64,000 nucleotides of DNA from contig JAHJCU010000005.1 of assembly GCA_018812925.1 (NCBI GenBank), positions 186,001-250,000 of the forward strand. Reading direction: 5' to 3'. Shown piece after piece: positions 14,674 through 50,370 of the stretch. Source of the DNA: Candidatus Omnitrophota bacterium (GTDB taxonomy: Bacteria > CAIJMQ01). Positions within the stretch are counted from its first letter, which is position 1. Each line of letters begins with the position of its first letter. Below the pieces are notes generated by a model, which saw only the letters and a list, made by a program, of their open reading frames with translations, did no database searches and was not told the origin of the DNA. The translations under genes and the position numbers were made by a program.

Positions 14674-14853
14674 CTCAATCGTTTCCCAATGTGTAATATC
14701 CTCGCCCCATAAGTGTTCCCTCTTTTCCTTAGCAGCATTTCTGTATTTAAAATAGCGTTTGTAAATTTGATTATTTTAGAAGATAATTCAAAGGATTTAA
14801 CAGGCAATACGTCTAACCAAGTGAAAATGCTAAATTACTTCAAGGAGTGATTA

Positions 14854-15417
14854 GTGGAAAAAGAGCAAGATATAATACTGGTTCAGAAAGCGAAAGAAGG
14901 CGATAAAGATGCATTTTGCGAATTAGTGAAAAAATATAAAAGACAAGTTTATTTCGTCGCTTATAGAATGACTAATAATCACTTTGAAGCCGACGACCTT
15001 TCACAAGAGGCTTTTGTCAAAGCATATGAATCTATAGGTAACTTCAAAGAAAAATCTGCTTTTTCTACATGGATATACAGAATAATTACTAATATGACAA
15101 TTGACTATATTAGGAAAAACAGAACAAAACAAGTATTTGAATTAGATGAAAATATATCTATAAAAAATAGCTATTACATCAATAATCCGATAGAAGAACG
15201 TGAATTACATAAAGAAATAAAGAAAGCTATAGGGTCTTTGCCATTAGAGCAAAGAGCAGTAGTGGAATTATCTATACTTGAGGGGTTAACTCATAAAAAA
15301 ATAGCAGAAATTTTAGATTGTCCTGAGAAGACAGTATCCTGGCGTTTATTTCAAGCAAGAAATAAACTTAAGGAAAAGTTAGAGATATATAGGGAGGTGA
15401 ACAGAAATGAATTGTGA
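14854..15417 (+). CDS. ECF-family RNA polymerase sigma factor
   Basis: The 187-residue protein is a group 4 (ECF) sigma factor. Region 2 (about residues 22-90) includes YRMTNNHFEADDLSQEAFVK and the -10-recognition WIYRIITNMTIDYIR. Region 4 (about 130-175) includes LPLEQRAVVELS and the helix-turn-helix TVSWRLFQARNKLK. The start is GTG at 14854 behind AAGGAG at 7 bases. It overlaps the next gene by 11 bases, and that gene is an anti-sigma factor. It heads a seven-gene operon of exported proteins ending at 26513, so it probably controls that operon and itself. I see no certain ECF promoter in the 180 bases upstream. Confidence 0.93.
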   Translation: MEKEQDIILVQKAKEGDKDAFCELVKKYKRQVYFVAYRMTNNHFEADDLSQEAFVKAYESIGNFKEKSAFSTWIYRIITNMTIDYIRKNRTKQVFELDENISIKNSYYINNPIEERELHKEIKKAIGSLPLEQRAVVELSILEGLTHKKIAEILDCPEKTVSWRLFQARNKLKEKLEIYREVNRNEL

Positions 15418-16381
15418 AGAAGTTAAAAAGATATTATCGGATTATCTGGCTGATTCATTAAATTCGGATTATAACAACGAAATCAAAGGACATCTTGATG
15501 AGTGCAAAGAATGTACAGATTGTTTTAGAGCTTTAGTCGAAACAGACAATATAGTAAAACTTATTGCTAATGAGGAACCTTCCGAAGAATACTGGGACAA
15601 CTATTTGCCAAAATTTAAAAGTAAGTTAGGTAAAGATTCAACTCCGAAACTATCTGAAAATAGAAGTCCGTTTCATCTCTTTACACCTAAATTTTCATTT
15701 GTTTTTAATGGAGTTTTACTAGCATTTCTGATTCTCTTAGGTGCTCTTCTTTACAGAAATAATCAACAGACGAAATTGTTGCAGATTGCTCTATTAGAAA
15801 AACAAGCGGAGACAATACATCCTAAAACTACGACAGAATTTATTATGCCTGTAGTATCAAGGCAAGCGATTCATGAAGATACTATGAAGAATACCAAGCT
15901 CTTTCAAGAAATAAGTGATATGTTCCCCAAAACGATTCAGTGGGTAGTTGCAAGTGATGGGCAAATTGAGTTGGGGCTTAGTAAAAACACATTGGCATCG
16001 AAAGCAATTACAGAAGAATCACAACCGATATTTCTGAAATTTAATATTATGAGAACTGCTGAGACCCCGGAGCTTGTTTCTTCTGCAAGCATGATGGTGT
16101 TAAATGGTAATGAAGTTAATGCTAAGTTATGGGGAGTATCAGAAACAGACTATACAACTTATAGATATCATTGTTTACCTTTATTAAGAACAGACGGAAA
16201 AATTGATGTTCGCATCAGGGTATCTCTCGATAATACCAGCTTAGAAACCGAGCTTACTGCAAATGAAGGGGACAATGTAGAAGTAGGCAGATTAAGAAAA
16301 GCAGACGCAGAATATTCTATTTATCTCAACGTTGTTTCTAAAGGTATTGATATTGTTAAAACTGAGGATATGGGGATATGA
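15407..16381 (+). CDS. Zinc-finger transmembrane anti-sigma factor
   Basis: This is a 324-residue membrane regulator. The N-terminal cytoplasmic domain has the ZAS zinc site: C3, H29, C33 and C36 (HLDECKEC). One transmembrane helix lies at about residues 100-118. The remaining 200 residues are outside the cytoplasm, with no family I recognise. By analogy with RsiW/ChrR-type proteins it would hold the upstream sigma factor until an envelope signal releases it. A GGGAGGTG ribosome site lies inside the end of the sigma gene, and it ends with a 4-base ATGA overlap onto the next gene. Confidence 0.88.
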   Translation: MNCEEVKKILSDYLADSLNSDYNNEIKGHLDECKECTDCFRALVETDNIVKLIANEEPSEEYWDNYLPKFKSKLGKDSTPKLSENRSPFHLFTPKFSFVFNGVLLAFLILLGALLYRNNQQTKLLQIALLEKQAETIHPKTTTEFIMPVVSRQAIHEDTMKNTKLFQEISDMFPKTIQWVVASDGQIELGLSKNTLASKAITEESQPIFLKFNIMRTAETPELVSSASMMVLNGNEVNAKLWGVSETDYTTYRYHCLPLLRTDGKIDVRIRVSLDNTSLETELTANEGDNVEVGRLRKADAEYSIYLNVVSKGIDIVKTEDMGI

Positions 16382-17931
16382 AACGACTGATTTTCATAGT
16401 TATATTGCTTTTTGCTGTCGTAAAAGTTGAGGCCTCTATTTCATTGTCTGTGAAGGAATCCGACCGCAACTTTTTTTCAAAAGAGCAAATTGAATGCACT
16501 CTATTTATTTGTAACGATACATTAGAGGCTAATAATATAATTGTTAAATGGAAAACTTCTGTTTTTTCAGCTGTAATTCAGGAAGGTGAAGAAAAAATAG
16601 AGTTAGGAGAACTTGAAGGTAAAGCTGTTCAAATTACTCTGGAAATGCCGGAAGTAAAACATCGTTCTCCTTTTGTTTTGAAGGTGCAGATAATCTGTGA
16701 TGAAAAATTAGAAGTAGAAAAACAATGGGATTATTCCGTTTTTCCGGAAAATATATCAGATACAATCAAAAACATTCTCAAGAATAAAGAAATAGGGGTT
16801 TTTGATTCTCCAGGGAAAATAAAACAAATATTTAATGAATATGAAATTCCTTTTACTTCATTAACCAATCAGTTAAGCACCCAAACTTTTGAAGGGGATT
16901 TAATTATTATCGGTCCGGAAGAAAATGCAAGACAGCTAATAAATATTCTCCCTATTCTTAAAGATAAAACAACAGAAGGGATTTCAGTTATATCTTTTCA
17001 GAAGGAATGGGACATAGAAGACCAGTTTCTTATTTCTCTAACAAACATTTCAACCCAACCATTAGAGATAAAAAAGATAGAAATTCTTTCACCGGATCAC
17101 CCCGTTTTTACAGAGCTTAATGAAAATGATTTGAGTAATTGGCGAGAAGATGAGGTGGTAACTAATTTCCCTCTAATAAAACCTATTAAAGGGAATTTTA
17201 GGATTTTGGCAGAAGCAGAGTTCTCAACTTCTGCTTTGTCGGAAGTTATTTTAGGAGAAGGTAAATTCATATTCTGTCAATTACAGGTAATTGATAAATT
17301 CCAGTCAGAGCCAATAGCTCAAACTCTCTTTGCAAACCTCATTAGATATGCTCTCATTAAACAAGAACCTCTGCAATCGGCAGTCATTTATGGCAATCCG
17401 GAAACAGGGATTATGGAAATTCTAAATTCTCTAAGTGTTGCAAAAGATACTACTGGAGATTCAAATTTCGTAATAGCGTGTATTGATGAGGATTCAGAGG
17501 AATTTATTAAAAAACTTCAAACACAAGCCTCTTCACATATAAAAGAGATTACTAAGAATGGCGGGTTAATTCTTATATTTGCAACTTTCCCGGATGCTGT
17601 TGTTCTTCTTGGAATTAAAGAAGACATTAAACGCATGAAAATTGCTCCGTTGGGACAACAGAGGATATATTATCGTCATGAAGAGATTATTGCTTTAGAT
17701 AATAGTAGTCCCTTATTGTGGGGGATTAGTGAGGACGAAAGCAACTTGTTAATGAAAAGAGGAAAGATGTTTAAACTTCAATTTGGAAATGCAGATGTAG
17801 TTATTTGCCAATCTCTATTTAATGAAGTTGACCCTGTAAGTATAAGAACAATGTCTCAACTAATTACAAATTTTGGAATAAAAATAGAAAAGGATGTAGT
17901 CAATGAAAATGGGGAAGCAAATATTGAATAA
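16378..17931 (+). CDS. Exported protein with GATase-like region, unknown function
   Basis: The 517-residue protein starts with a signal peptide (about residues 1-20, ending VEA). The next 100 residues look like a beta-sandwich. Around residues 150-200 there is a GDLIIIGPEENARQL segment followed by an ISVISFQKEWD strand. Later, GKFIFCQLQVID followed by PIAQTLFANLIRYAL recalls the class I GATase-like domains of many exported glycosidase-associated proteins, where the catalytic triad is usually lost. I see no catalytic cysteine triad here. It starts on the stop of the anti-sigma gene, so it is translationally coupled to it. Confidence 0.65.
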   Translation: MKRLIFIVILLFAVVKVEASISLSVKESDRNFFSKEQIECTLFICNDTLEANNIIVKWKTSVFSAVIQEGEEKIELGELEGKAVQITLEMPEVKHRSPFVLKVQIICDEKLEVEKQWDYSVFPENISDTIKNILKNKEIGVFDSPGKIKQIFNEYEIPFTSLTNQLSTQTFEGDLIIIGPEENARQLINILPILKDKTTEGISVISFQKEWDIEDQFLISLTNISTQPLEIKKIEILSPDHPVFTELNENDLSNWREDEVVTNFPLIKPIKGNFRILAEAEFSTSALSEVILGEGKFIFCQLQVIDKFQSEPIAQTLFANLIRYALIKQEPLQSAVIYGNPETGIMEILNSLSVAKDTTGDSNFVIACIDEDSEEFIKKLQTQASSHIKEITKNGGLILIFATFPDAVVLLGIKEDIKRMKIAPLGQQRIYYRHEEIIALDNSSPLLWGISEDESNLLMKRGKMFKLQFGNADVVICQSLFNEVDPVSIRTMSQLITNFGIKIEKDVVNENGEANIE

Positions 17932-17968
17932 TCACTCGATTTATTCGGGTAAAAAGGAGGGTAGGCGT

Positions 17969-19045
17969 ATGAAAAATAGGATAGGTAAAAATGCAGTGAT
18001 GTTAGCGCTACTATTCGTTTGCTTTGTTTCTCTTGCAGGATTCACTTATGCAGAGCAATTAACTGTGGCGATTCTTAACTTTGATACAAAAGAGGTAAAA
18101 GAACTTACAGCCCAAGATAAAAGTATTGGTATTTTGGGTGCAAAAATAGCTGATTTGTTAGCCGTGGAACTTTCTATTGATCCCAACATCAGCTTGGTAG
18201 AAAGAGATAAATTAGGTAATATCCTTGAGGAAATGGGGTTAGGCAGAACAGGTATATTAGATGCAGAGCAAGCATCAAAGATTGGACAGATGACAGGGGC
18301 TCAAATTTTAGTTACCGGCCGTGCATTTACGTTAGAAAGAGAGTTGGTAATAATTGCCAAAATTGTAGGGACAGAAACAAGCAAGGTCCAGGTAGTATTG
18401 GACAAAGGGAACTTATCTGAAGACCTGACTGCTATAGCAAAGAGATTGTCCCAGAAAGTAGCTTTGGTAATTCTTGAAAAAGGTTCTACTATGATAGCTA
18501 AAGAACCCAAGAAAGAGGAAGATAAGATACAAGAGCTTAAGGATAAAATAAATAACAAAGATAAACCTAAAGTATTAGTAGCTATCTCTGAAAGACATGT
18601 TACTGGCGGAGCTATTGATCCCGCGGCAGAACAAGAGTTTACTTATATTTTGAATGAATGCGATTTTATAGTAGCAAGTAAAAAAGGACTTGATTTAAGT
18701 GGTTGGGCAAAAGAATATCTTAAAGATGCAAATCTTAATATGCCTGTAAATATTGATGCAAATGTAATTATTGTTGGTGAGGCATTTAGCGAATTTGGAG
18801 CTCGGACAGGCAATTTGATTTCCTGTAAAGCACGAGTTGAAATTAAAGCTATTCAAGTTCGCGATAAGGAAACCCATGAAATCTTACAGACTCCTCAACT
18901 TTTAGCTATTGACAGGGAAACTAATACTGCGGTGGATTTATCCGAACAAATTACTGCTAAAACGGCAATCCAAGAAGCTACCGCTAATATCGCTTATCGC
19001 ATGATTCCAAAAATTGTAGAGAGGTGGAATAACAAAAATAATTAA
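17969..19045 (+). CDS. CsgG-like exported protein without lipobox
   Basis: The 358-residue product begins at an ATG 7 bases after AAAGGAGGG. A longer frame beginning at 17903 lies within the previous gene and is unlikely. A signal peptide ends near FTYAEQ and is of signal peptidase I type; there is no lipobox cysteine. Residues about 30-190 match the CsgG/TolB-like fold: VAILNFDT, LVERDKLGNILEE and QILVTGRAF. The rest (about 200-358) may be a second related domain with VIIVGEAFSEFG. CsgG proper is an outer membrane lipoprotein nonamer that secretes curli; this protein is probably periplasmic. Confidence 0.8.
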   Translation: MKNRIGKNAVMLALLFVCFVSLAGFTYAEQLTVAILNFDTKEVKELTAQDKSIGILGAKIADLLAVELSIDPNISLVERDKLGNILEEMGLGRTGILDAEQASKIGQMTGAQILVTGRAFTLERELVIIAKIVGTETSKVQVVLDKGNLSEDLTAIAKRLSQKVALVILEKGSTMIAKEPKKEEDKIQELKDKINNKDKPKVLVAISERHVTGGAIDPAAEQEFTYILNECDFIVASKKGLDLSGWAKEYLKDANLNMPVNIDANVIIVGEAFSEFGARTGNLISCKARVEIKAIQVRDKETHEILQTPQLLAIDRETNTAVDLSEQITAKTAIQEATANIAYRMIPKIVERWNNKNN

Positions 19046-19060
19046 ATGTAAGAACTAATA

Positions 19061-22000
19061 ATGACAAATAAATTCTTACATATCAGCTCTCTTGTGCTTT
19101 TGCTCTTCATCTTACTGGTAGGAGCAAATGCACAAGGGGTATCTGAAACAAAATCCCAACCAACAATTGCGGTATTGGGGACAATATCTGAACTATCTGA
19201 TTTATGCGCGCTTGTTGAGGCAGGGCTATTTCAGAAAGGGATTAATTTAGTTGAACGGGCAAAGATAGATAGCATATTAAAAGAACAAAAATTAACTGCT
19301 TCAGGACTTGTTGACAGAGATAACCTTATTAAATTAGGACAACTACTTCGAGCAGACGGTTTTCTATTGATATCCATAGAAGAAGAACAAAAAGAAATCA
19401 AAGATAAGCCGCAAGAAAAAGCTCTTCCAATTCTCCGTATTCGCCTTATCGACACAGCATATGGACTGCGTTTTCTGGATACATTTGAAGAATGGGACAG
19501 CACAAAACTAAAAGAAACCGCAGAGAGGATTACAGAAAATGTATCTGCAATAGCTCCTAAACTAATCTTGCCCCCTGATAAAGCAATTCCGATAGGTATT
19601 GTTGGTATTCACCGAGTTGAATTAGATGAACGCTACCAATGGCTTACAAGAGCATTACCAACAATGCTTTCTGCGCGTCTAAATAAAGAACCACGAATAA
19701 TAATGCTTGAAAGAGAAGATTTGAAGATGTTATTAGATGAGAAACTTCTAACACAAGGAAAAGATACGGCATTCTGGGGTTCAGCAATATTAATTGACGG
19801 ATATCTACAAAGAGAAGACAAGGAAGGAATAAAACTGCAAGGAGATAAAGAAGAAGTAAAGTTGCAACTTCAGATAAAGGATTTCGCAGGTAAAGAAAGA
19901 GCTGTTTTTACAGAGTTGGTTAATCCTGATAAACCACTAACAGCAGTAGACAAAGTAGTACTCAACATTATTAAAGGATTACTCAATGCGCCATCTATAA
20001 CTGTATGGGAACCAGAGAAAGAAGCGGAAGAGTTTTTTCGGCAAGGAGAACTTCTTAGGAAAAATAGAAGAAACAAAGATGCAATAGCACCGCTTGAAAC
20101 GGCTTATGCTCTTCAACCTGATAATGTTTCTTACACTGGAGCACTTTTTGAGAATGAATGGGATACGCGTTTTACAGACGAGTGGGAAATGAAATGGGGC
20201 TCATATGCTAAACGTGTAGCAACAGGTATTTCTTATTATTCGGATTTAGAATTGGCTTACGTAGTTTCTCGCTTGATTCGACAAATAAAAGCAGGATATG
20301 AGAGTGGGGCAATACTTGCAAATGAGGCGTTTAAATGGCAAGAACTAATTGGGAAAGGATACACTTCTAGTAATCGGAATCAGAGATATTTAGTAAACTC
20401 TGTTTCCACCTCTACACAAGAGGTTAGGGACATAAACCGAGAGAACCGTAGAATTTGGGTAGAACTTGTGAGGGAAATTATTAAAGCAAATCCTAATGAT
20501 TGGCGTAGTAATCGTATATCTATAGATATAACTTGTATTAGTTCCGATGTTCCTGATGAGTTAATAAACAATATGAAGAAGATTTTAATGGAACTAATTA
20601 TGCCTCCAGAAGATGGAGGAAAAATTCAATCATTTGATGAAAGATTTCGGCTTTGCGAGTATGCAATAGGCTCGGGGCTTTTTTACAATATGAGTCATAT
20701 AAAAGACATGGGAAAATTTAACAAAATGTGGGAGGAATATCTTAAAGAATTGTCTGAAGTTAAAGATCCTTTAGTTAGATTTTATGGCTATATGACTTTA
20801 TCAAATGATATAGCAAGAAGTGGAAGTAAAGAGGCGAAGGATTACTGTTTGAAAGCTATAGATATTCTATTAAATGAACTTAAAAGCCCCAATGAGCCTT
20901 TTGAAAATGAACATTTGAACAGCCCCAAATTTAATATTAGGAATGATATGAGATTATGCATATCATTTGCCGGTTTTACTCCTATAGAAGAAATAAGCAT
21001 CTATGAGAAGTTGTATTATTCCCTCATAGAAAATAATGATTGCGAGAATTTATCTGATTGGTGGGGATTTTGGCATGGCAGCCCATATCTTAATTGTAAA
21101 GACCCTGAAATAGCAAAACGCTATATTAAACTTTTGGAAGGGATAGCTGAGGTTATGAAAAATTGCAAAGAAGACCGAGAGGCTTTAGAAAGATGGAGTA
21201 ATATAACAGATTGGATAGCAGACACGAGAAAAACATTTCCCCAGTTAGAATTAGAAAAAACCCCATCCAATTTCTCTTTTCCTGTCAATATGCTTCTAAA
21301 TAAAGAAAATTGGCCAAAGAAAAATATATCTTACGACTATTCAAAAGCATTACTCCAAAACAATATGCTCTGGGTTACTTTTGCAGAATCCTATGAAAAA
21401 CCAATAATTGGACTTGCAGGCGTAGACCTTGAGAAGAAAAATTTAATCTCATTGTGGCAGGTTGATTTTGATAGAGATATAAAGGAGTGGAAAAAACTCT
21501 GCCTCCCTGTGGTAGATTTCTCCATGCCATTAAGCGGAGCAATAACAGGAATAGCAATAAATGAACATACCAGTTATATAGCGATGAGAGAAATAGGATT
21601 AGTAGAATTGCCTGGAGGTTCTGTTAGAGGTGTAAAATTATTTGAAAATCCCAAGATATTAACTGAAAAAGATGGGCTTCCATCGATATCAATTATGGGG
21701 ATGGTTGGAGATGGGGATAAATTATGGATAGCTTATGGAGGCTTTGGTAAAGAAAGCGGGTTAGGTATATATACCCCTAAAACAAAGCATTGGGAAACAG
21801 TTCTTTGCAGTACAGTAAAAGGTGATACTCCTTTCAATATGGGTAATCCGTATGCCATATCAAACCTTACTTTTTCTCCAAAGAGAGATAAGTTATTTTT
21901 TATAGTAGGAGAAGTTGTTGATTCCCGTTGTTTGGGTTGCTTTGACGAGTGGACCCATTTGTGGGGGCTTTGGAAAATTAATATCGAAACGAGAAAAGTA

Positions 22001-22474
22001 GAGTTTATATGGGATAGAGAACAAGATTGTGGTTATTACCCTGATGTAAAGTATATTATAGATTCAGGCTATAAATGGTGGCTAAAGATAAGAGAATGCC
22101 TTATAGAATTCGATCCCGATTTAGAAAAAGGGAAAATCATCGTGGGGGGTTATTATGGGGAAATGTTATTAAGAGGGAAAAAACCAGTACCTCAATTGGA
22201 AATTGATTCTTCTTTTTCTAGGAAAAAGATTCCAATTGAATTGGGGAGCTTAACTGTTCACAATGATAGATGCTGGGAAAGATTAGGTAACAATCAAATA
22301 ATATCAATACATAAGGATGATAAAGGACATGAAGACACTAAAATATTTAATAATGACATCTTAAATGGAGACGCCGTACGTGAATTTTTCAGCACACCTT
22401 ATGGATTGATTGCTATCGGCAACGGAGTAGTAGGACTGATAGAAACCGAGAATATAGATACAAAAAATGAATAG
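19061..22474 (+). CDS. Large exported CsgG-like/helical/propeller protein, paralog 1
   Basis: The 1,137-residue protein has a signal peptide (about 1-25, ANAQG). Residues about 32-190 are CsgG-like (IAVLGTISEL, LVERAKIDSILKEQ, LGQLLRADGFLLI). Residues about 190-330 are a second CsgG-like unit (GIVGIHRVEL, IIMLEREDLKMLL). A TPR-like pair (DAIAPLETAYALQPDN) follows near 350. The middle (about 390-730) is mostly helical. The C-terminal 370 residues look like a beta-propeller, with a two-component-regulator-propeller-type motif (LTEKDGLPSIS, then KLWIAYGG and LGIYTPKT). It overlaps its paralog by 8 bases. No catalytic motif is seen; a sensing or scaffold role outside the cytoplasm is inferred. 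Confidence 0.72.
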   Translation: MTNKFLHISSLVLLLFILLVGANAQGVSETKSQPTIAVLGTISELSDLCALVEAGLFQKGINLVERAKIDSILKEQKLTASGLVDRDNLIKLGQLLRADGFLLISIEEEQKEIKDKPQEKALPILRIRLIDTAYGLRFLDTFEEWDSTKLKETAERITENVSAIAPKLILPPDKAIPIGIVGIHRVELDERYQWLTRALPTMLSARLNKEPRIIMLEREDLKMLLDEKLLTQGKDTAFWGSAILIDGYLQREDKEGIKLQGDKEEVKLQLQIKDFAGKERAVFTELVNPDKPLTAVDKVVLNIIKGLLNAPSITVWEPEKEAEEFFRQGELLRKNRRNKDAIAPLETAYALQPDNVSYTGALFENEWDTRFTDEWEMKWGSYAKRVATGISYYSDLELAYVVSRLIRQIKAGYESGAILANEAFKWQELIGKGYTSSNRNQRYLVNSVSTSTQEVRDINRENRRIWVELVREIIKANPNDWRSNRISIDITCISSDVPDELINNMKKILMELIMPPEDGGKIQSFDERFRLCEYAIGSGLFYNMSHIKDMGKFNKMWEEYLKELSEVKDPLVRFYGYMTLSNDIARSGSKEAKDYCLKAIDILLNELKSPNEPFENEHLNSPKFNIRNDMRLCISFAGFTPIEEISIYEKLYYSLIENNDCENLSDWWGFWHGSPYLNCKDPEIAKRYIKLLEGIAEVMKNCKEDREALERWSNITDWIADTRKTFPQLELEKTPSNFSFPVNMLLNKENWPKKNISYDYSKALLQNNMLWVTFAESYEKPIIGLAGVDLEKKNLISLWQVDFDRDIKEWKKLCLPVVDFSMPLSGAITGIAINEHTSYIAMREIGLVELPGGSVRGVKLFENPKILTEKDGLPSISIMGMVGDGDKLWIAYGGFGKESGLGIYTPKTKHWETVLCSTVKGDTPFNMGNPYAISNLTFSPKRDKLFFIVGEVVDSRCLGCFDEWTHLWGLWKINIETRKVEFIWDREQDCGYYPDVKYIIDSGYKWWLKIRECLIEFDPDLEKGKIIVGGYYGEMLLRGKKPVPQLEIDSSFSRKKIPIELGSLTVHNDRCWERLGNNQIISIHKDDKGHEDTKIFNNDILNGDAVREFFSTPYGLIAIGNGVVGLIETENIDTKNE

Positions 22475-25400
22475 AAAATTTTTGAGTTTTGCATTGCTTG
22501 TTCTAGTAATAATAATCCCATTAGAAGCGGCTGAGACAAAATCCCAACCAACAATTGCAGTTCTGGGAACAACAACGGAACTGTCTGATTTATGTTCGCT
22601 TGTTGAGGCGGGGCTGTTTCAAAAAGGGTTGGCTTTAGTTGAACGGGCAAAAATAGACAGCATATTAAAAGAGCAGAAGCTAACTGCCTCGGGACTCGTT
22701 GAACGAGATAATCTCCTAAAATTAGGACAATTAATCCGAGCAGATGGATTCCTGTTGATATCAATAGAGGAAGTCCCAAAAGAAAACAAAAACAAACTTC
22801 TTCGTATTCGTCTTATTGACACAGCACATGGACTATGTTTTCTGGATACCTTTGAATCTTGGGATGATACAAAATTAAAAGAAACTACAGAAAGAATTAC
22901 AGGAAATGTATCTGCAATGGCTCCCAAACTAATCCTGCCTCCAGATAAAGCAATCCCGATAGGTATAGTAGGTATTCATAGGGTCGAACTTGATGAACGC
23001 TATCAATGGCTTACAAGAGCATTACCTGTAATGCTGTCAGCACGTCTAAACAAAGAGCCAAGAATAATAATGCTTGAACGTGAAGACCTGAAGATGCTCT
23101 TGGACGAGAAACTACTGACAAAAGGACAAGACACAGCATTCTTAAATTCTGCCATATTAATTGATGGATATCTACAAAGAGGAGAAAAGGAAGGGATAAA
23201 GCTACGAGATGAGGAGGATGAAATAAAGTTAGAACTACATATGAAAGATTTCTTAGGTAAAGAAAGAGCTGTATTTACAGAGTTAGTTCATCCTGATGAA
23301 CCATTAACAACAGTAGAGAAAGTAGTACCCAACATCATCAAAGAATTACTTAATGCTTCATCTATAACTGTATGGGAACCCAAGAAAGAGGCTGAAGAAT
23401 TTTTCCTACAAGGAGATTTGTTAAAGAAACACGGAAGACACAAAGATGCAATATCACCCCTTGAAACGGCATATGCTCTTCAACCAGATAATATTATTTA
23501 CACAGGAGCACTTTTTGAGAATGAATGGGGTACTCGTGTTATACAGGGAGGACATACTGTAGAAACAGGTATCTCTAATTATTCAGATTTAGAATTGGCT
23601 TGTACTGTCTCTCGTTTGGTTCGACAAATAAAAACGGGATACGAGAACGGTTCAGTATCTGCAGATGATATTCTAAAATGGGAAGAATTAATCGGTAAAG
23701 GAGGCGCTTGGAAAGGCGGCTATCTTATAAATTCCGCTTCGTCTTCTACTCAAGAAGTTAGAGATATAAACCGCGAAAACCGAAATTTTTTTGTAGAGAT
23801 ACTAAAAAAAATTAGTAAAAGAAACAATAACAGGTATCTTCCTTTAACTGCAGTTTACATTAGTTCTGACAATCCATACGAATTGATAAAAAACTTTAGA
23901 GAATTTGCGCAGGAAGTTATTTTGCCTCCTAAAATAGGCGAAATGGAGCAATCATTTGATGAAAGATATGTTGCTTGCCGTTTAATATTAACACAACTGC
24001 CGGATCGTTGGGGACCGTACGCTCTTTCTGAGAAGAGTCAATTAAGAGAACAAAGCAAAAAATTTCAGGAATTATGGATAGAATATGTTAAAGAACTAAC
24101 ACAAATTAAAGACCCATTAGTAAGATTTTCAAGTTGTTTATGTCTTGCGCAAATATTAAAAAGAGGAAGTCCAGAAGCAAAGGAATATTGTTTGAAGGCA
24201 GTAGATATCTTGCTAACAGAACTTAATAGTCCCAATGAACCTTTTAAAAGTAATTCAAGGACGTATAAAGAATCTATGCGTAGCGATATGAAATGTGGTA
24301 TAAGGTTTGCGGGATTTCCCTATGATGAAGAAGTTAGCATTTTTGAGAAGATTTATGAACCCTTAATAGTAAATAAAGACTGTCATAATTTAATGTTATG
24401 GCGTCCGACGCTAATAGGGTTTGCACCTATTTTCCGTCCCACTCCCGAAGAAGAAAGGCGCTACATAAAACTCTTAGAAAGAATAGCTGATGTTTTTGAG
24501 ACTTGTGGCACTGATAAATGGGTTTTAACCGAGATAAAAGATTATTTAATAAGAGCAAAGAAGAAATTCCCTGAGTTAGGATCTTCCAATAATCCAACAA
24601 CTCTTCCAGTTAATATCTTACTAAGCAATAAAGACTGGCAACAGAACAAGAAATTTAAACATACAAAATTTATGTGTCAGGATGATATGTTATGGATTTC
24701 TTTTGCAGAGCCTGGCGTCGGTCTTGCGGGAATAAATCTCAAGACAAGACAATTAACTTCGCTCTGGTATACAGATTTAGGCGGCAGGGAAATAGCATTT
24801 CCTTGTTTCTGGGAACCACCACTTTCTTTAGTAACTCCAATAAATGGTATAGCAGTAAGCGCAAATGCGAGTTATGTTGCTATCTGGAATATTGGTTTAA
24901 TAGAGTTCCCGGGAAGTTCTGTTGTTGGCAAAAAATCTTTTGCAACTCCTAAAATATTTACTGAAAAAGACGGGCTTCCTTCAATATCAATTACAAGTAT
25001 GGCTGGAAATGGAGATAAATTATGGGTTGCTTATGGAGGAACAGAACAAAGACATGGTAGAAGAGCATATGGTACTGTTTATTCAGCCGCAGAAAAAGAT
25101 AGCGGATTAGGTATATATAATCCTAAAACAAGACATTGGGAAACTGTATTTTGTAGTACCCTAAAAAGCGGTAATAATCCTTTCAATTCAGGGAACCCCT
25201 ATGTCATTTCTGACCTTACGTTTTCTTCTAAGAAAGACAAATTATTTTTTGTGGTAGGTAATCAAACTCGTGAGTCAGCTCAAAGAATTGATGAAATGAA
25301 TAAGTGGTGGGGGCTTTGGAAAATTGATGTCAGCACAAGAAAACCTAAGTTTCTATGGTATAGAGAAGGGAATGATGATAATAGTTGTTATTCCCTAATA

Positions 25401-25817
25401 TCTGGGCATATTTTAGATTCTGGAGATAAATTGTGGATTAAAGGAGAGGGCTCTCTTGTAGAATTTGATCCTAATTCAGAAAAGGCTAAAATTATAATAA
25501 ACAGGTCCTGGTCAAGAAATACACATCCACCTCAACCTGAAAAAGAAATAGATTATTCTTTTTCTGAAAAGAAGAACCTATTTAGCTATGGTTCTTTTGA
25601 TTGTAAATGTTCTGCTGTCTATAAAGATACATTTTGGGGGCGATTGGGGAGAAATCAGTTAATAACTACACATAAGAAAAAAGAAGAAGTGCAAATAATT
25701 GACAACAATATTCTGGATGGTGATCCAGTGCAATATTTTTTCAGCACACCTTATGGATTAATTGCCATCGGCAATGGAACTGTAGGACTGATAGAAACAG
25801 AAGGTATTGGGAAATAA
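22467..25817 (+). CDS. Large exported CsgG-like/helical/propeller protein, paralog 2
   Basis: The 1,116-residue protein repeats the full architecture of the gene before it. It has a signal peptide (about 1-20), two CsgG-like units, a TPR-like segment (DAISPLETAYALQPDN), a helical middle and a propeller-like C-terminus ending STPYGLIAIGNG. From PKLILPPDK on, 66 residues differ from paralog 1 at only one position, while the middle regions have diverged strongly. Recent tandem duplication followed by divergence, or gene conversion of the N-terminal part, would explain this. It starts inside the end of paralog 1. Confidence 0.72.
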   Translation: MNRKFLSFALLVLVIIIPLEAAETKSQPTIAVLGTTTELSDLCSLVEAGLFQKGLALVERAKIDSILKEQKLTASGLVERDNLLKLGQLIRADGFLLISIEEVPKENKNKLLRIRLIDTAHGLCFLDTFESWDDTKLKETTERITGNVSAMAPKLILPPDKAIPIGIVGIHRVELDERYQWLTRALPVMLSARLNKEPRIIMLEREDLKMLLDEKLLTKGQDTAFLNSAILIDGYLQRGEKEGIKLRDEEDEIKLELHMKDFLGKERAVFTELVHPDEPLTTVEKVVPNIIKELLNASSITVWEPKKEAEEFFLQGDLLKKHGRHKDAISPLETAYALQPDNIIYTGALFENEWGTRVIQGGHTVETGISNYSDLELACTVSRLVRQIKTGYENGSVSADDILKWEELIGKGGAWKGGYLINSASSSTQEVRDINRENRNFFVEILKKISKRNNNRYLPLTAVYISSDNPYELIKNFREFAQEVILPPKIGEMEQSFDERYVACRLILTQLPDRWGPYALSEKSQLREQSKKFQELWIEYVKELTQIKDPLVRFSSCLCLAQILKRGSPEAKEYCLKAVDILLTELNSPNEPFKSNSRTYKESMRSDMKCGIRFAGFPYDEEVSIFEKIYEPLIVNKDCHNLMLWRPTLIGFAPIFRPTPEEERRYIKLLERIADVFETCGTDKWVLTEIKDYLIRAKKKFPELGSSNNPTTLPVNILLSNKDWQQNKKFKHTKFMCQDDMLWISFAEPGVGLAGINLKTRQLTSLWYTDLGGREIAFPCFWEPPLSLVTPINGIAVSANASYVAIWNIGLIEFPGSSVVGKKSFATPKIFTEKDGLPSISITSMAGNGDKLWVAYGGTEQRHGRRAYGTVYSAAEKDSGLGIYNPKTRHWETVFCSTLKSGNNPFNSGNPYVISDLTFSSKKDKLFFVVGNQTRESAQRIDEMNKWWGLWKIDVSTRKPKFLWYREGNDDNSCYSLISGHILDSGDKLWIKGEGSLVEFDPNSEKAKIIINRSWSRNTHPPQPEKEIDYSFSEKKNLFSYGSFDCKCSAVYKDTFWGRLGRNQLITTHKKKEEVQIIDNNILDGDPVQYFFSTPYGLIAIGNGTVGLIETEGIGK

Positions 25818-25859
25818 ATTTATTAGAACAATAAAACAAGTAGAGTAAGGAGAATAATT

Positions 25860-26513
25860 ATGAGATATTTATTAAGAGTTGTGTTATTAGTAGCGATATT
25901 GGGTATAACTAATATCGCATTTTCAGAAGAGCCCGTTATTCCTTCTCTTGCCCCAGATATTATGGAAGCAATATTAACTGAAGGTAGAGATTTGCTTAGA
26001 ACTATTATGACAGTTGAAAAAACATATTTTTCCGAATATGGGAAACATACAACTAAATGGAAAGATATAAATGCGGATGTCGATTTGACTAAGAATAAAT
26101 ATTTCATTACGCCTCCGGTTATTATTGTTTGGGGTAATGGTTTTAAAGCTACTGTTAAAGGTTCTGGAAAAGCAGATTGGATTTGCATCAGTATAAACCA
26201 AAATGGTGTTATAACTCATATGAATATTAAGCGAGCAATAGGAAGCGAAGGGCAAGATTTAGTTGCTTTGATTAGAACGCAGGAAAGGGTTTATTTTTCA
26301 AAGAACAACAGATATACGGATAAATGGGAAGACATAAGCGCAGAAATTGATTTAACTAATAATAAGTTTTTCATTACGACTCCCGTTATTACTGTTTCCG
26401 GGAATGGAAGTTATACTACTTTTACTGCTACCATAACGGGTTCGAGAGAAGCAAAGGGAGTTAGTATAAGCATAAACCAAAACGGGAGTGTAACAGCAAC
26501 AGGTCTGTATTAA
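25860..26513 (+). CDS. Secreted protein with two pilin-like C-terminal domain copies
   Basis: The 217-residue protein has a signal peptide (about 1-20). Two copies of a domain of about 95 residues follow (about 38-125 and 130-217). Each opens with a helix (LLRTIMTVEKTYFSEYG; LVALIRTQERVYFSKN), continues with KWKDI/KWEDI and FITPPVI/FITTPVI, and ends with SINQNG. The helix-plus-sheet pattern recalls the globular domain of type IV pilins, but there is no pilin leader or hydrophobic spine. An AAGGAG site supports the start. It is the last gene of the sigma-factor operon. Confidence 0.7.
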   Translation: MRYLLRVVLLVAILGITNIAFSEEPVIPSLAPDIMEAILTEGRDLLRTIMTVEKTYFSEYGKHTTKWKDINADVDLTKNKYFITPPVIIVWGNGFKATVKGSGKADWICISINQNGVITHMNIKRAIGSEGQDLVALIRTQERVYFSKNNRYTDKWEDISAEIDLTNNKFFITTPVITVSGNGSYTTFTATITGSREAKGVSISINQNGSVTATGLY

Positions 26514-26543: not shown

Positions 26544-26590
26544 GGGGAAAATCTCTTCTTTAATAAGAGATTTCCCCCCCCTTTTGTTTG
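26544..26590 (+). terminator. Rho-independent terminator of the sigma-factor operon
   Basis: GGGGAAAATCTCTT pairs with AAGAGATTTCCCC across a 7-base loop, giving a near-perfect stem followed by CCCCTTTTG. It lies 30 bases after the last operon gene and is one of the strongest hairpins in the window. Confidence 0.85.
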
Positions 26591-38601: not shown

Positions 38602-39753
38602 ATGAAAGAAATTACCATTCTTGGCTCTACAGGCTCAATAGGGAAAAACACGCTGGAAGTTGTGTCTCAGTTAAACGGACAATTCAAAGTTGTCGGTTTG
38701 AGCGCCCAAAATAATATAGAACTCTTAACAGAACAAGTCGAAAAATTCCATCCAAAATGGGTTGCTATTGCCGATGATGCAAAAGGCGAACAATTCAGGA
38801 AACAATTCAAAGGTTCCCTGGAAGAAATTTTTATCGGAAGCGAAGCTGTTACGAAGCTTGCAGGTAAAAAAGTTGATTTGATTGTAATTGCGCTTGTGGG
38901 TTCTGCGGGGATGTTGCCTACATTTGAAGCAATAAAAACCGGAAACGATATAGCCCTTGCCAATAAAGAGGTTTTGGTAATTGCCGGTAAAGAGGTTATG
39001 GCAAAGGCAAAAGAAAGAAATATTAAGATATTTCCTTTGGACAGTGAGCATTGTTCTATATTCCAAAGCATAGACAAAGAAAAAAAAGAGGCAATTCATA
39101 AAGTTATTTTAACGGCTTCCGGAGGACCCTTTTATAATTATGATGAGAATAAGTTTTCGTCCATTAAAGCAAAAGATGCGCTTATACATCCTACTTGGGA
39201 TATGGGAGCGAAAATCACCGTAGATTCGGCTACGTTGATGAACAAAGGTTTTGAAGTTATTTCAGCAAAGTGGTTCTTTGATTTAGATTGGGATAAAATT
39301 GATGTGATAATTCATCCGCAATCCGTGGTCCATTCTTTAGTGGAATTTGTTGACGGGACGACATTGGCTGTGTTATCCGAACCCGATATGAGAATTACTA
39401 TTAAACATATTTTGACATATCCCAATAGAACTCAAGGTCAATTTAAGACGATTGATTTAAATGAAATTTCCGAACTTACTTTTTCAAAGCCGGATGAGAA
39501 AAGATTCCCTGCTTTAAGGCTTGCTTGTTCGGCAGGCAGGATTGGGGGAACAATGCCTGCTGTTCTTAATGCTTCCAATGAAGTGGCTGTAGAGGTGTTT
39601 TTGAAAGACAAAATATCATTCCCGCAAATTTGGCAGGTCTGTGAATCCGTTATGAAAAGACACAGCCCCAATCTTGAACAAGAATTGCAGAATATTTTAA
39701 AAGCAGACCATTGGGCAAGAATACAAGTCGGTAGTATAATAGAGAAGTTATGA
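38602..39753 (+). CDS. dxr: 1-deoxy-D-xylulose 5-phosphate reductoisomerase
   Basis: Dxr makes 2-C-methylerythritol 4-phosphate, the committed step of the non-mevalonate isoprenoid pathway. The 383-residue protein starts ITILGSTGSIGKNTLEV (NADPH binding), and has ALANKEVLV, PLDSEHCSIFQ (about 150, metal site), the flexible-loop region TASGGPF, and MNKGFEVISAKWFF. Its TGA overlaps the ATG of the next gene, a GspC-like protein, so isoprenoid synthesis and type II secretion are translationally linked here. Confidence 0.96.
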   Translation: MKEITILGSTGSIGKNTLEVVSQLNGQFKVVGLSAQNNIELLTEQVEKFHPKWVAIADDAKGEQFRKQFKGSLEEIFIGSEAVTKLAGKKVDLIVIALVGSAGMLPTFEAIKTGNDIALANKEVLVIAGKEVMAKAKERNIKIFPLDSEHCSIFQSIDKEKKEAIHKVILTASGGPFYNYDENKFSSIKAKDALIHPTWDMGAKITVDSATLMNKGFEVISAKWFFDLDWDKIDVIIHPQSVVHSLVEFVDGTTLAVLSEPDMRITIKHILTYPNRTQGQFKTIDLNEISELTFSKPDEKRFPALRLACSAGRIGGTMPAVLNASNEVAVEVFLKDKISFPQIWQVCESVMKRHSPNLEQELQNILKADHWARIQVGSIIEKL

Positions 39754-40604
39754 GAAGAGGATGGATTAAATATTTAAATATTTTTCTCTGCGTTATAGTG
39801 ATATACCTATCATTTAATATTTTTTTATTCCTACGTTCTTATGGAAAAGAAAAGGCAGAAGCTGCTGTTTTGCCGATTTCTCCTGAATCTCAATCTCTCG
39901 CAAAGTCTGAAAAAAATCTTAGTGATTACGCGGTAATTTATAAAAGAAATTTATTTAATATTAGTGAAATTTCTAAACCTACAACTACTTCTTCCAAAAT
40001 TTCGTCTTTTAAATTAAAAGGGACGGTAGTGGGCTCCGAAGAATTTACATTCTGTATAATAGAAGATAGAAGCAAGAGAAAAGATGACCTTTATCAAAAA
40101 GGTGATAAAATACAGGATATGGAAGTTAATGAGATTATGGCTGACAGCGTGATATTAACAAGGGGCACTGAAAAAATAGTTTTGTATATCAACGAAAAAG
40201 GAGAGGAAATCAAAACAAATGATAGAACTGTTGTTACTGCCGGTTTGCCGTCGCCTGATTTTCCCAGTTTAGAAAATCCTGCTCCTAATAAGTGGATTTT
40301 AAGCAGAGAAGATATTCTTCAGGCAACGAGCAATGTTTCGCAGATTATGTCGGGTTTGAAAATTAAGCCTAATTTTTCTGCGGGTAAAATGGAAGGTTTT
40401 AGGATTGACGACATTGACGATGGAAGCATAGCTTTGGAAATGGGAATAAAGAAAGGCGATGTTGTTAAGAAAATAAACGGCGAAACGATAGATAGCCCCA
40501 AAAAGATTTTTGAGTTTTACAGGAATTTGGAACAGTCTAACTCAATTCAATTGGAGGTTGGCAGAGGCGATTCAACGGAAACTTTAACTTATGAAATAAA
40601 ATAA
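39750..40604 (+). CDS. gspC: Type II secretion system inner-membrane protein GspC-like with PDZ domain
   Basis: The 284-residue protein has one N-terminal transmembrane helix (about 10-29) and a periplasmic homology region (about 60-145), where VIYKRNLFNISE and FKLKGTVVGSEE match GspC/PulC. A C-terminal PDZ domain (about 205-284) has GFRIDDIDDGSIALEMGIK and GDVVKKINGETI. GspC links the inner-membrane platform to the secretin encoded next. It starts on the dxr stop codon (ATGA). Confidence 0.85.
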   Translation: MRRGWIKYLNIFLCVIVIYLSFNIFLFLRSYGKEKAEAAVLPISPESQSLAKSEKNLSDYAVIYKRNLFNISEISKPTTTSSKISSFKLKGTVVGSEEFTFCIIEDRSKRKDDLYQKGDKIQDMEVNEIMADSVILTRGTEKIVLYINEKGEEIKTNDRTVVTAGLPSPDFPSLENPAPNKWILSREDILQATSNVSQIMSGLKIKPNFSAGKMEGFRIDDIDDGSIALEMGIKKGDVVKKINGETIDSPKKIFEFYRNLEQSNSIQLEVGRGDSTETLTYEIK

Positions 40605-40632
40605 TAAATTTATGATTATGCCCTTGCAATTC

Positions 40633-40743
40633 GCACCCTGAAATTTCATAGAAATTTCGGGTACTTAGTCCTTGAAATGCTTTGCATTTCTAAGGGAAGA
40701 ATTGCGGGTACTTAATCCCGGAAATCCTAAGGATTTCTCGGGG
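40633..40743. repeat. Cluster of three palindromes between gspC and gspD
   Basis: Three hairpins follow one another: ACCCTGAAATTTC with GAAATTTCGGGT (40635-40662), TCCTTGAAATGC with GCATTTCTAAGGGA (40669-40697), and CCCGGAAATCC with GGATTTCTCGGG (40717-40742). Each has the pattern C-rich/GAAAT/loop/ATTTC/G-rich. A single unit of the same type is at 57798-57820. Confidence 0.7.
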
Positions 40744-40757
40744 CACATATTAAAAAA

Positions 40758-42644
40758 ATGCGATTTAAATCAGTTATTTGTGCGGTTTTATTTTTTATAA
40801 TGTTTTTGAATGTTAACTGCGCTCTTGCCAACTCTCCATTGCCGGGAGCAGACGCCGAACAACTTATCTCTATAAATTTTGAGGATGTTGATTTAAGAAT
40901 AGTTACGAATTTTGTTTCGAAAGTGACAGGAAAGAATTTTCTTCTCGACGATAGGGTTAGAGGAAATGTAACTATTATCTCCCCAACTCAAATACCCGTG
41001 GAAGAAGTATATACAGTGTTTTTGTCTGTGCTTGAGGTGAGGGGATTCACCGCTATTCCTGCCGGCAGAGTTACGAAAATAGTGCCTATGGCAACAGCCA
41101 GGCAATCTTCCCTGCCGACAAGTATTGGCAAGGAAATTTCAGAAATGCCGTTCGAAGATAAGATGATTACGCATCTTATTCCTTTAGAGTATGCAGATAG
41201 CCAGCAGCTTCTGGCTATACTTGCTCCGCTTATTTCTGCGCAGGGGCATTTGACTTCCTACCAGCCTACGAATACTTTGATTGTTACGGATACATCTTCC
41301 AATATCCGCAAACTCTTGACGATTATAAATAGTTTTGACATTGAAGGCGCAAAGTTAGAGACATCTATAATTTCTTTAAAATATGCTTCTGCTCAAACGA
41401 TTTCTGAAAAAGTCAGTAGCGCCGTAGAAAGCGCCGGTAGCACATCAATTACTAGTGCAAGGTCTGTAAGAGGCGCTGCGCCAAGGGCTCCTATGTCTGT
41501 GGGAGGGGGAATTACTCTTATTCCCGATGAGCGTATAAATTCTATTATTTTAGTAGCCAATCAAGATGATACTTTAAGAGTAAGGGAGCTCATTGAACAA
41601 TTGGATATCTTACCTCCCCCCGGCAGAGAGACCATACATATTTATAAATTAAAATACGCTGACGCAGAAGAATTGGCTAAAGTTCTATCGGCTATGCCTT
41701 TAGGAAAAGAGGCAGCCTCAAAAGGAGCCAAACCTATCAGTATCAGTGCCGATGTTTCCACTCGTTCCTTAATTGTTACCGCAGACCCTGAGGATTATAG
41801 CAACATAAAAGAAGTGATAGACCAGCTTGATTCTGTAAGACCTCAAGTTTTCTTAGAAGCGTTGATTGCCGATGTGTCTATGGATATGATGACAGATTTA
41901 GGTGTTGAATGGGGTACAGTAGATAACCCGGTAGAGGGGGAATACAGAGGGTTTGGGGGTGCGAAATATGGCACAGGGTCTCTTTATGAAAAAGCTGCAA
42001 CTTTCTCCGGTCTTATTATAGGCGCTATGAAAGGGACAACTTCGGGAATACCTAATGTGGGGATGATTATACAAGCGTATAGTAAAAAAACTGGGTTTGA
42101 TATTCTTTCCACTCCGCAGATACTTACTCTGGATAATAAAGAAGCTAAAATATTAGTCGGCGAGAATATTCCTTATCTAACTTCATCCCGTATAACCGAG
42201 CAGGATACTGTTGTAAATAGTTATGCATATAAAGATGTAGGTATAGAATTAACGATAACTCCTTATATAGGAACGGAAAATAACCTTAAACTTGATATAC
42301 ATCAGAAAGTTACGAAACTTGTTCCCACAGCAACCGGAACAGAACTGCCTACAACGACGATACGAGAAGCGAAAACAAGCGTGTCGGTCGATGATGGTTC
42401 TACGATTGTTATCGGAGGACTTATAAGAGACGATAGCACTGAAGTGTTGTATAAAGTTCCGTTATTGGGAGATATATGGATTTTAGGCGCATTATTTAGA
42501 AGAACCGAGAAAAAAATTGAGAGAAGAAACCTTCTTATATTTATAACCCCTTACATTATAAGAAAGAAGGAAAAAATAGAAGAATTGACACAAAATAAAA
42601 AGGAACTTCAGGATAAATTCAAGATAGAGGAAGCAGTTAAGTGA
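40758..42644 (+). CDS. gspD: Type II secretion system secretin
   Basis: GspD forms the outer-membrane channel of the type II secretion system. The 628-residue protein has a signal peptide (about 1-25) and an N0 domain (about 35-105, with ISINFEDVDLRIV). Three N1-N3 ring domains (about 130-370) follow, with TNTLIVTDTSSNIRKL, INSIILVANQDD and TRSLIVTADPEDYSNI. The C-terminal secretin domain carries VFLEALIADVS, TPQILTLDNKEAKILVGENIPYL-type motifs and VPLLGDIWILGALFR (about 565). The order gspC-D-E-F is conserved. Confidence 0.95.
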   Translation: MRFKSVICAVLFFIMFLNVNCALANSPLPGADAEQLISINFEDVDLRIVTNFVSKVTGKNFLLDDRVRGNVTIISPTQIPVEEVYTVFLSVLEVRGFTAIPAGRVTKIVPMATARQSSLPTSIGKEISEMPFEDKMITHLIPLEYADSQQLLAILAPLISAQGHLTSYQPTNTLIVTDTSSNIRKLLTIINSFDIEGAKLETSIISLKYASAQTISEKVSSAVESAGSTSITSARSVRGAAPRAPMSVGGGITLIPDERINSIILVANQDDTLRVRELIEQLDILPPPGRETIHIYKLKYADAEELAKVLSAMPLGKEAASKGAKPISISADVSTRSLIVTADPEDYSNIKEVIDQLDSVRPQVFLEALIADVSMDMMTDLGVEWGTVDNPVEGEYRGFGGAKYGTGSLYEKAATFSGLIIGAMKGTTSGIPNVGMIIQAYSKKTGFDILSTPQILTLDNKEAKILVGENIPYLTSSRITEQDTVVNSYAYKDVGIELTITPYIGTENNLKLDIHQKVTKLVPTATGTELPTTTIREAKTSVSVDDGSTIVIGGLIRDDSTEVLYKVPLLGDIWILGALFRRTEKKIERRNLLIFITPYIIRKKEKIEELTQNKKELQDKFKIEEAVK

Positions 42645-42645
42645 T

Positions 42646-42768
42646 CCCCGTTAGAGATTAAAATTTTTTTATGATTTATATCAATGTTGCAGAAACAAAG
42701 ATAAAGAAGGTTCACACGTTAAGTATAATTTACGCTTTGATGTATCGTCGGAGCTATCTCTAGCGGGG
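42646..42768. mobile_element. MITE-like element A, 123 bp with 13-bp terminal inverted repeats
   Basis: The left end CCCCGTTAGAGAT (42646) and right end ATCTCTAGCGGGG (42756) are inverted copies with one mismatch. There is no ORF between them. It lies just after gspD and ends 5 bases before the gspE start. A second element with the same ends is at 47645-47773. Confidence 0.6.
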
Positions 42769-42772
42769 TAAA

Positions 42773-44470: not shown

Positions 44471-44471
44471 T

Positions 44472-44532
44472 AATTAGACAGACAACAGAATACAGATAAC
44501 AGAAAAAGTTAATATCTGATTTCTGTCTTTTG
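44472..44532. repeat. Heptanucleotide repeat (ACAGAAT/CTGTCTT family)
   Basis: Units GACAGAC, AACAGAA, TACAGAT and AACAGAA are followed by a short complementary ATCTGATTTCTGTCTTTTG arm. It is a shorter relative of the array at 4142-4260 and fills the gap between gspE and gspF. Confidence 0.65.
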
Positions 44533-44539
44533 AAAAAAC

Positions 44540-49392: not shown

Positions 49393-50370
49393 ATGACGAA
49401 TAGAAGAAATATATTTATTATTGGGTTGTTTTTTGTTTTATTATCTGTCTCGGCGGTTTTTTTAAATCAATATTATCAGGTACAAAAAATATTGAAAGAA
49501 GAAACCGAAAAAGAAAGGATTCTGTTAGAGAAAAGAAAATCGGATTGGCTAATATTGGAACAGACATTATCAGAATATATAACCAGTTTTAATGGAGAAG
49601 CTGGTATTTTAATCAAAGATTTGCAGTCAAATTGGAAGATATCTTTTAATAAAGATAAATTGTTCCCTTCGGCAAGCGTAGTAAAGATTCCCATTCTGGT
49701 TTCATGTCTTAGCGCAATCGGGGATGGGAAACTTAATCCTGATTCTGTTATACGTCTTAGGTCTATAGATAAAGCTTCAGGCTCCGGGGTTCTGAAAAAT
49801 ATGTCTACAGGTAAAGAAATTAGTATTAATGAGTTGTTTGAGCTTATGATTACTAAAAGCGACAATACGGCTGCCAATATACTGATAGACCGTTTGGGTT
49901 TTGAATATCTCAATTCATCTTTTAAATCTTTGGGGATTAAAAATACAAATTTGTCCCGTAAGATGGTTGATTTTAAGGCACGCAGTCGAGGTGTTGAGAA
50001 TTATACGACTGCAGAAGATCTTGCCCTTGTTTTAGAGAAAATTTATCGTGGAGAAATTGTTAACAGCGATATTTCAGAGCAATGTCTGGATTTGTTAAAA
50101 CAACAAAAAATAAATGACCGTATCCCCAAATATTTACCCAAAGAAGCTGTTATTGCTCACAAAACCGGGCTTGAACGTTTTGTTTGTCACGATGCAGGAA
50201 TTGTGTATACTCCTAATGGTGATTTTGTTATTTGCGCATTAGTTAAGCATTCAGAAACCACCAGCAAATCAGCGAAAAAATTTATTGCAAACATAGCTGA
50301 AATCGCATATCAATATTTCGAAAACAAACAGACTATGGCTGGCGCCATAACTTTTTCAGTTATCAATTAG
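49393..50370 (+). CDS. Beta-lactamase-fold serine hydrolase, membrane-anchored
   Basis: The 325-residue protein has an uncleaved N-terminal membrane helix (about 6-25), a coiled-coil-like stretch (about 30-50) and a class A beta-lactamase fold. The catalytic S95-V-V-K98, the SDN motif in ITKSDNTAAN, and the KTG in AHKTGLERFV are present. A clear E166-x-x-N motif of true class A lactamases is not seen, so a wall-associated or penicillin-interacting hydrolase is likelier than antibiotic resistance. It lies 4 bases after the amidase gene. Confidence 0.8.
   Translation: MTNRRNIFIIGLFFVLLSVSAVFLNQYYQVQKILKEETEKERILLEKRKSDWLILEQTLSEYITSFNGEAGILIKDLQSNWKISFNKDKLFPSASVVKIPILVSCLSAIGDGKLNPDSVIRLRSIDKASGSGVLKNMSTGKEISINELFELMITKSDNTAANILIDRLGFEYLNSSFKSLGIKNTNLSRKMVDFKARSRGVENYTTAEDLALVLEKIYRGEIVNSDISEQCLDLLKQQKINDRIPKYLPKEAVIAHKTGLERFVCHDAGIVYTPNGDFVICALVKHSETTSKSAKKFIANIAEIAYQYFENKQTMAGAITFSVIN

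Follow-up and report, generated by a model that had tools for sequence, protein, structure and literature searches.

What does an extracytoplasmic function (ECF) sigma factor control when the genes that follow it encode a set of unfamiliar exported proteins? The question is raised by seven genes in a 64,000-nucleotide stretch of DNA (hereafter the window; positions 186,001 to 250,000 of contig JAHJCU010000005.1, assembly GCA_018812925.1) from a Candidatus Omnitrophota bacterium, whose lineage we take to be Candidatus Ratteibacteria and whose genome is a 1.47 Mb assembly of 14 contigs. An initial annotation proposed that these genes form an operon for an envelope or surface system, in which CsgG-like proteins sense, transport or scaffold something, under the control of the sigma/anti-sigma pair at its head.

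Here we describe, at the level of sequence, the structure of the operon and its promoter, the conservation of the regulatory pair, the replacement of its cargo, a domain added to the anti-sigma factor, and the lack, in the CsgG-like proteins, of a lipobox and of the second half of CsgG. On this basis the locus is a regulator of known type, here with a swapped exported cargo and a new outside domain on its anti-sigma factor. Genomes, contigs and loci used for comparison are prefixed G, C and L, respectively.

Seven genes in one operon

Seven tightly spaced open reading frames (ORFs) on the plus strand span positions 14854-26513 (Table 1), as annotated initially. Successive ORFs overlap by 11 (the sigma and anti-sigma genes, which are presumably cotranscribed), 4, 29 and 8 bases or are separated by gaps of 15 and 42 bases; gene 4 more likely starts at 17969, preceded by the Shine-Dalgarno sequence aaaggaggg, in which case its 29-base overlap with gene 3 gives way to a gap of 37 bases. 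The close packing of the genes before a strong terminator is borne out by these positions and by the terminal hairpin, which was equalled by 1 of 200 shuffled sequences; no terminator was found between genes 1 and 7, and scans of sigma-70-type promoters and of terminators gave no excess above shuffles. GC content at third codon positions (GC3) is 0.25-0.28 in all seven genes vs. 0.32-0.39 in their neighbours, and because this value is common to all seven, the genes behave as one block, which fits a single accessory block. Judged from arrangement and composition, the seven genes are one operon, with the ECF sigma/zinc anti-sigma pair at its head and the hairpin terminator at its end.

Table 1. 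Features of the operon, in window coordinates.
Feature	Position	Strand	Evidence
ECF-type promoter, TCAAAG-N16-CGTCTAA (TCAAAGGATTTAACAGGCAATACGTCTAA)	14788..14816	+	conserved element before orthologous sigma genes
Gene 1: ECF sigma factor, 187 aa, GTG start	14854..15417	+	Sigma70_r2 1e-22, Sigma70_r4_2 2e-14 (Pfam)
Gene 2: zinc-binding transmembrane anti-sigma factor, 324 aa	15407..16381	+	zf-HC2 3.6e-6 (Pfam), residues 3-36
Gene 3: exported protein, 517 aa, free-standing counterpart of the non-catalytic C-terminal module of GH2 glycosidases	16378..17931	+	GH2 homology
Gene 4: exported CsgG-domain protein, without lipobox	17969..19045 (alternative start 17903)	+	PF03783 8.3e-11
Gene 5: exported protein, 1137 aa; CsgG-like unit, weak second unit, tetratricopeptide repeat (TPR), helical solenoid, beta-rich C-terminal third	19061..22474	+	PF03783 9e-6
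Gene 6: exported protein, 1116 aa, tandem paralog of gene 5	22467..25817	+	CsgG match (Pfam), gene 5 identity
Gene 7: exported protein, 217 aa, two type IV pilin globular heads after cleavable signal	25860..26513	+	identity to pilins
Intrinsic terminator, hairpin and T run	26544..26586	+	-16.5 kcal/mol, z -3.08

A sigma factor and an anti-sigma factor with an added outside domain

The product of gene 1 contains sigma regions 2 and 4 only (Pfam), and its top NCBIfam models include SigW, SigM and RpoE, all of them below their cut-offs. Its nearest relatives, 62-70% identical, are encoded in G000:C3, G001:C14, G002:C127 and G003:C18. One more relative lies at G000:C11:399691, and the window sigma factor and these five form one clade of six (support 100/99). 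In gene 2, the zinc-finger region contains an HxxxCxxC motif at residues 29-36 and precedes a single transmembrane segment (residues ~91-115), confirming the initial identification of an ECF sigma factor and a zinc/transmembrane anti-sigma factor. In these domains, in the adjacent, overlapping genes and in the ECF-spaced promoter that heads its own operon (see below), the pair resembles ECF sigma factors with class I (zinc, ZAS) anti-sigma factors; unlike in those systems, the cargo consists of exported orphan proteins, and the outside domain of the anti-sigma factor has no known relative.

This outside domain is apparent from alignment of the window anti-sigma factor (324 residues) with its orthologs (162-240 residues). 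Residues ~145-324 constitute an exported extension that is mostly absent from the orthologs, and that has no relative among 1194 ORFs compared, in Pfam or among PDB sequences, where only chance matches were found. By this alignment, the window copy has gained an exported outside domain of ~180 residues.

A conserved ECF-type promoter

The initial annotation had assigned a leader to the region upstream of the operon; the region matches no Rfam family, and what it does hold is a promoter of ECF type, whose end lies 37 bases upstream of the gene 1 start codon, with transcription expected to start near 14823. ECF promoters usually have a spacing of 16 bases, the distance found here between TCAAAG and CGTCTAA. 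In the window, G003, G000:C3 and G001, the sigma gene is preceded by one and the same element, TCAAAGGATTTAAC-N9-GTCTAA, with all 19 specified bases, and the promoter core is additionally found upstream of the sigma genes in G002 and G000:C11. As the genes upstream of these loci vary (folD, pyrC and others), a shared flank does not account for this conservation.

Scored with a weight matrix built without the window site, the promoter reaches 21.8, compared with 7.4 for the runner-up in the 64 kb and 13.1 for the best of 15 Markov copies; no further promoter of this type occurs in the window, the interior of the operon included. At up to 3 mismatches the pattern is matched 5, 4, 2 and 5 times in G000, G001, G002 and G003, respectively, and the reversed pattern 1, 0, 0 and 0 times. 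Two perfect core matches (G000:C10 and G001:C40) were set aside, as both lie inside coding sequence. A looser core (2 mismatches) yields hardly any excess over its reversed control, and weak sites are therefore not claimed as regulon members; these include a version with 3 mismatches before an operon of the ATP-binding cassette (ABC)-permease/HflK-HflC type in G000:C11 and G002:C122 (L138 near 13771; L139 at 322).

The conserved element thus probably drives the seven-gene operon. Its recurrence before orthologous pairs makes the proposal that the pair regulates the operon it heads well supported and, on present comparisons, very probable.

Prepilins behind the pair in relatives

The initial annotation would have been refuted by a gene order conserved in no relative, and on this point the outcome is mixed: an anti-sigma gene adjoins the sigma gene in four of the five related loci, and the five-gene cargo is found nowhere else among the genomes searched. 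Among relatives of the same genus and family, the pair normally has a gene for a DUF1559-type prepilin behind it, as in G000:C3, G001:C14 and G002:C127. The good matches to the promoter outside sigma genes stand directly before lone N_methyl prepilin genes (G003:C44, G000:C9, G001:C65), and a further one lies at a contig end in G003:C71, after the same peptidyl-prolyl-isomerase-like gene as stands before a prepilin gene in G001 and G002. All four prepilins tested in Pfam matched N_methyl; for DUF1559, two of the four exceeded the cut-off and the other two fell short of it. Genes neighbouring the pair and prepilin loci encode a GH94/SOGP phosphorylase, an MFS_2 sugar transporter, GH31 and rhamnosidase-like proteins. 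Given these prepilins and their sugar-use neighbours, the pair appears ancestrally to have controlled exported prepilins in a context of sugar use.

DUF1559 prepilins are a strongly expanded family in Planctomycetes (PMC8567305, PMC2754498). The DUF1559/SBP_bac_10 prepilins described there are the counterpart of the N_methyl prepilins preceded by pairs and lone promoters in the relatives; in the window, in contrast, they are replaced, and only the doubled head of another pilin family, without the assembly helix, is found.

A third sigma gene of the clade (G000:C11:399691-400227; L166:5689-6237, minus strand) follows pyrC and has a promoter-like site before it. Unlike its G002 ortholog, it is followed by neither an anti-sigma nor a prepilin gene, and a major facilitator superfamily gene lies ~210 bases later.

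Detached glycosidase and pilin modules

The signal peptides predicted initially for the five cargo proteins were recovered: each has an N-terminus of the Sec type and no lipobox, as called by a hydrophobicity heuristic rather than by SignalP. In gene 3, the signal peptide is followed by a region (residues 19-339) matching residues ~590-930 of proteins of 1111-1323 amino acids with GH2 N-terminal, sandwich and TIM-barrel domains; its relatives are the C-terminal parts of GH2 proteins in G002, G004, G005 and G048. As the matched residues lie beyond the barrel, gene 3 is without the catalytic domain. The label ‘GATase-like’ first given to this protein can be justified only indirectly, through this GH2 C-terminal homology, one of the homologous GH2 proteins having a sub-threshold match to DUF4350.

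The double pilin-like domain reported for gene 7 is indeed a duplicated pilin head. Identity to G000-G003 pilins that have FTLVELLVV helices is 43-49% for the second copy and about 34-45% for the first. The hydrophobic signal of gene 7 ends AFS/EE, with no GFTLVEL motif, and the prepilin methylation/assembly helix is absent. The same genome encodes a GYF_2/DUF975 membrane protein (L086:11781-13067) with a C-terminal pilin head domain, also without the prepilin helix. Identification of the cargo parts has good support in genes 3 and 7 and is partial in genes 4-6.

CsgG-like proteins without the features of a channel

Matches to CsgG exceed the curated Pfam cut-off in genes 4, 5 and 6, in keeping with the three CsgG-like proteins of the initial annotation. 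The tandem paralogs 5 and 6 share 60-61% identity, and gene 6 is laid out as a CsgG-like unit (residues ~24-158), a weaker, putative second unit (~158-303), a TPR (309-342), an alpha-solenoid (~335-708) and a region predicted to be beta-rich (730-1116). Beyond these matches, the C-terminal half of gene 4 has no Pfam match, and a search of PDB sequences returned nothing for gene 4 and only the TPR for genes 5 and 6; in structure comparison of the gene 6 model, residues ~335-708 resemble common alpha-solenoids and nothing more.

That one operon holds three CsgG-domain proteins together with a small exported protein invites a curli-like reading, in which the former would be an outer-membrane secretion channel for the doubled pilin head. 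Of the 210 positions of the CsgG model, however, genes 4, 5 and 6 match 8-103, 48-96 and 48-95, respectively, that is, the front half only, and no lipobox is found in their first 45 residues. CsgG, the curli secretion lipoprotein, shares this front half, and differs from the window proteins in its lipobox and rear half and in their fusion to TPR, solenoid and beta-rich regions. In addition, no Pfam or NCBIfam match to csgA, csgB, csgE or csgF (a CsgE, CsgF or curlin-repeat partner) occurs among the seven products, and the window itself encodes a GspD secretin. The missing lipobox and rear half make a pore or channel function of genes 4-6 unlikely on sequence grounds, and with the lack of csg partners they led us to reject the curli-like channel, which we consider very improbable.

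TolB consists of an N-terminal domain of the CsgG clan followed by a propeller. Given that CsgG and the TolB N-terminal domain belong to one Pfam clan (PMC3173608), a TolB-like layout is the nearest analogy for genes 5 and 6, which are likewise exported, with a C-terminal part predicted, at low confidence, to be beta-rich; a propeller in them is conjectural. They differ from TolB in the ~370-residue solenoid that lies between the two parts, and in an operon without Tol-Pal genes.

The clan relationship also lends itself to an envelope-stress or repair system, in which the CsgG/TolB-clan proteins would be LpoB- or TolB-like, acting as periplasmic chaperones or on the cell wall, and misfolded outer-membrane or pilin proteins would be sensed by the anti-sigma factor, as in RpoE/RseA. 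The SigW, SigM and RpoE models, matched by the sigma factor below their cut-offs, and the weak site before the HflK/HflC-type operon point in the same direction. Strong copies of the promoter, however, stand at prepilin and sigma genes rather than at chaperone or protease genes, and the cargo is without a recognisable chaperone or protease; we judge a stress system somewhat unlikely.

Distribution of the cargo

The five-gene cargo set is absent from all genomes searched, including a search of 386 genomes, and genes 5 and 6 have no close relatives among the contigs of the window's own genome. In the 386 genomes, matches to genes 5 and 6 are short and confined to the CsgG domain, with one exception. 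In the distant lineage G307 a protein matches gene 5 across residues 9-355 (E 1e-10), and longer kin occur there in several tandem copies, either fused to HEAT and ankyrin repeats or next to them. The G307 loci L228, L216 and L229 encode tandem exported proteins with two CsgG-like units, a TPR and a beta-rich region; these are missing from two congeners of G307.

Such a distribution would also be compatible with an ordinary ECF pair whose downstream genes are unrelated accessory genes, read through without being functional targets, as would a GC3 unlike that of the neighbours. The GC3 of the cargo, however, is also that of the sigma and anti-sigma genes; genes 1-7 overlap or are closely spaced, with no internal promoter of this type and a terminator at the end only; and the outside domain of the anti-sigma factor is found in this copy only. 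Simple read-through is quite unlikely in the light of these features.

Envelope context

Type II secretion genes (gspC, gspD, gspE and gspF, in this order) lie at window positions 39750-45751, 13 kb downstream of the operon, and LptF/G is encoded in the same window, indicating a cell with an outer membrane, which type II secretion might allow proteins to cross. With the exported products, these diderm genes are in keeping with the initial proposal of an envelope or surface system; transport by the CsgG-like proteins, which was part of that proposal, is not supported. Elsewhere in the window (49393-50370), a protein matches class A beta-lactamase models below their cut-offs.

A proposed re-use of the regulator for a new cargo

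The explanation we favour, and to which we give an even chance of being right, is an autoregulated ECF sigma/anti-sigma module that ancestrally controlled prepilins, and whose paralogous copy in the window has been re-used for a new exported set. In this scheme the anti-sigma factor would keep the sigma factor at the inner membrane until an envelope or surface cue, acting on the new outside domain, released it to transcribe the operon from its own promoter. The five cargo proteins would be exported by Sec; the CsgG/TolB-clan proteins, forming no curli-type channel, would be soluble scaffolds that possibly oligomerise, either in the periplasm or, once exported by type II secretion, at the surface. 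There they would hold glycan- or filament-binding parts, namely the doubled head from gene 7 and the putative accessory module derived from GH2. This function of the cargo, as an exported scaffold or contact complex, is tentative and somewhat doubtful. A bolder and unlikely reading is that genes 4-6 form a new family of soluble surface scaffolds of the CsgG/TolB clan, built from two CsgG-like units, a TPR and solenoid, and a beta-propeller. Such scaffolds would assemble the detached modules, glycosidase and pilin, into an exported complex that contacts glycans, and a sigma/anti-sigma switch with lineage-exchanged cargo and a constant promoter would have it made on demand.

Several observations weigh against the favoured explanation. 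No relative has the cargo conserved alongside the pair, and operon structure is thus its one link to the ancestral regulon. In G001 and G003 the contigs stop shortly after folD, where an empty site could therefore not be read. The second CsgG-like unit is not significant in Pfam, nor is the internal repeat of units 1 and 2 by hhalign; the ‘propeller-like’ region of the initial annotation has no Pfam support in genes 5 and 6, the beta-rich C-terminus appearing in a low-confidence model only. AlphaFold2 models of the anti-sigma factor (mean predicted local distance difference test score, pLDDT, 37.5) and of gene 6 (mean pLDDT 37.4, of low confidence except in parts of the solenoid) are too poor for claims about folds.

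In its logic, the proposed module would be analogous to Sigma-I/RsgI of cellulolytic clostridia (PMC6056542) and to the ECF/anti-sigma pairs of Bacteroides glycan loci, which likewise combine an alternative sigma factor, a membrane anti-sigma factor with an outside domain, and polysaccharide-related exported genes. Unlike in these systems, no carbohydrate-binding domain was identified in the window anti-sigma factor, and the likeness is one of analogy, not a claim of homology.

For a candidate phylum known from assembled genomes, the locus provides a concrete, testable sigma regulon, with a promoter sequence, its spacing and targets in several genomes. It would also offer an example of a regulator pair that changes its exported cargo while the promoter stays the same. 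Finally, the occurrence of CsgG domains inside large exported proteins that do not resemble channels is relevant to the interpretation of ‘CsgG’ annotations in genomes from the environment.

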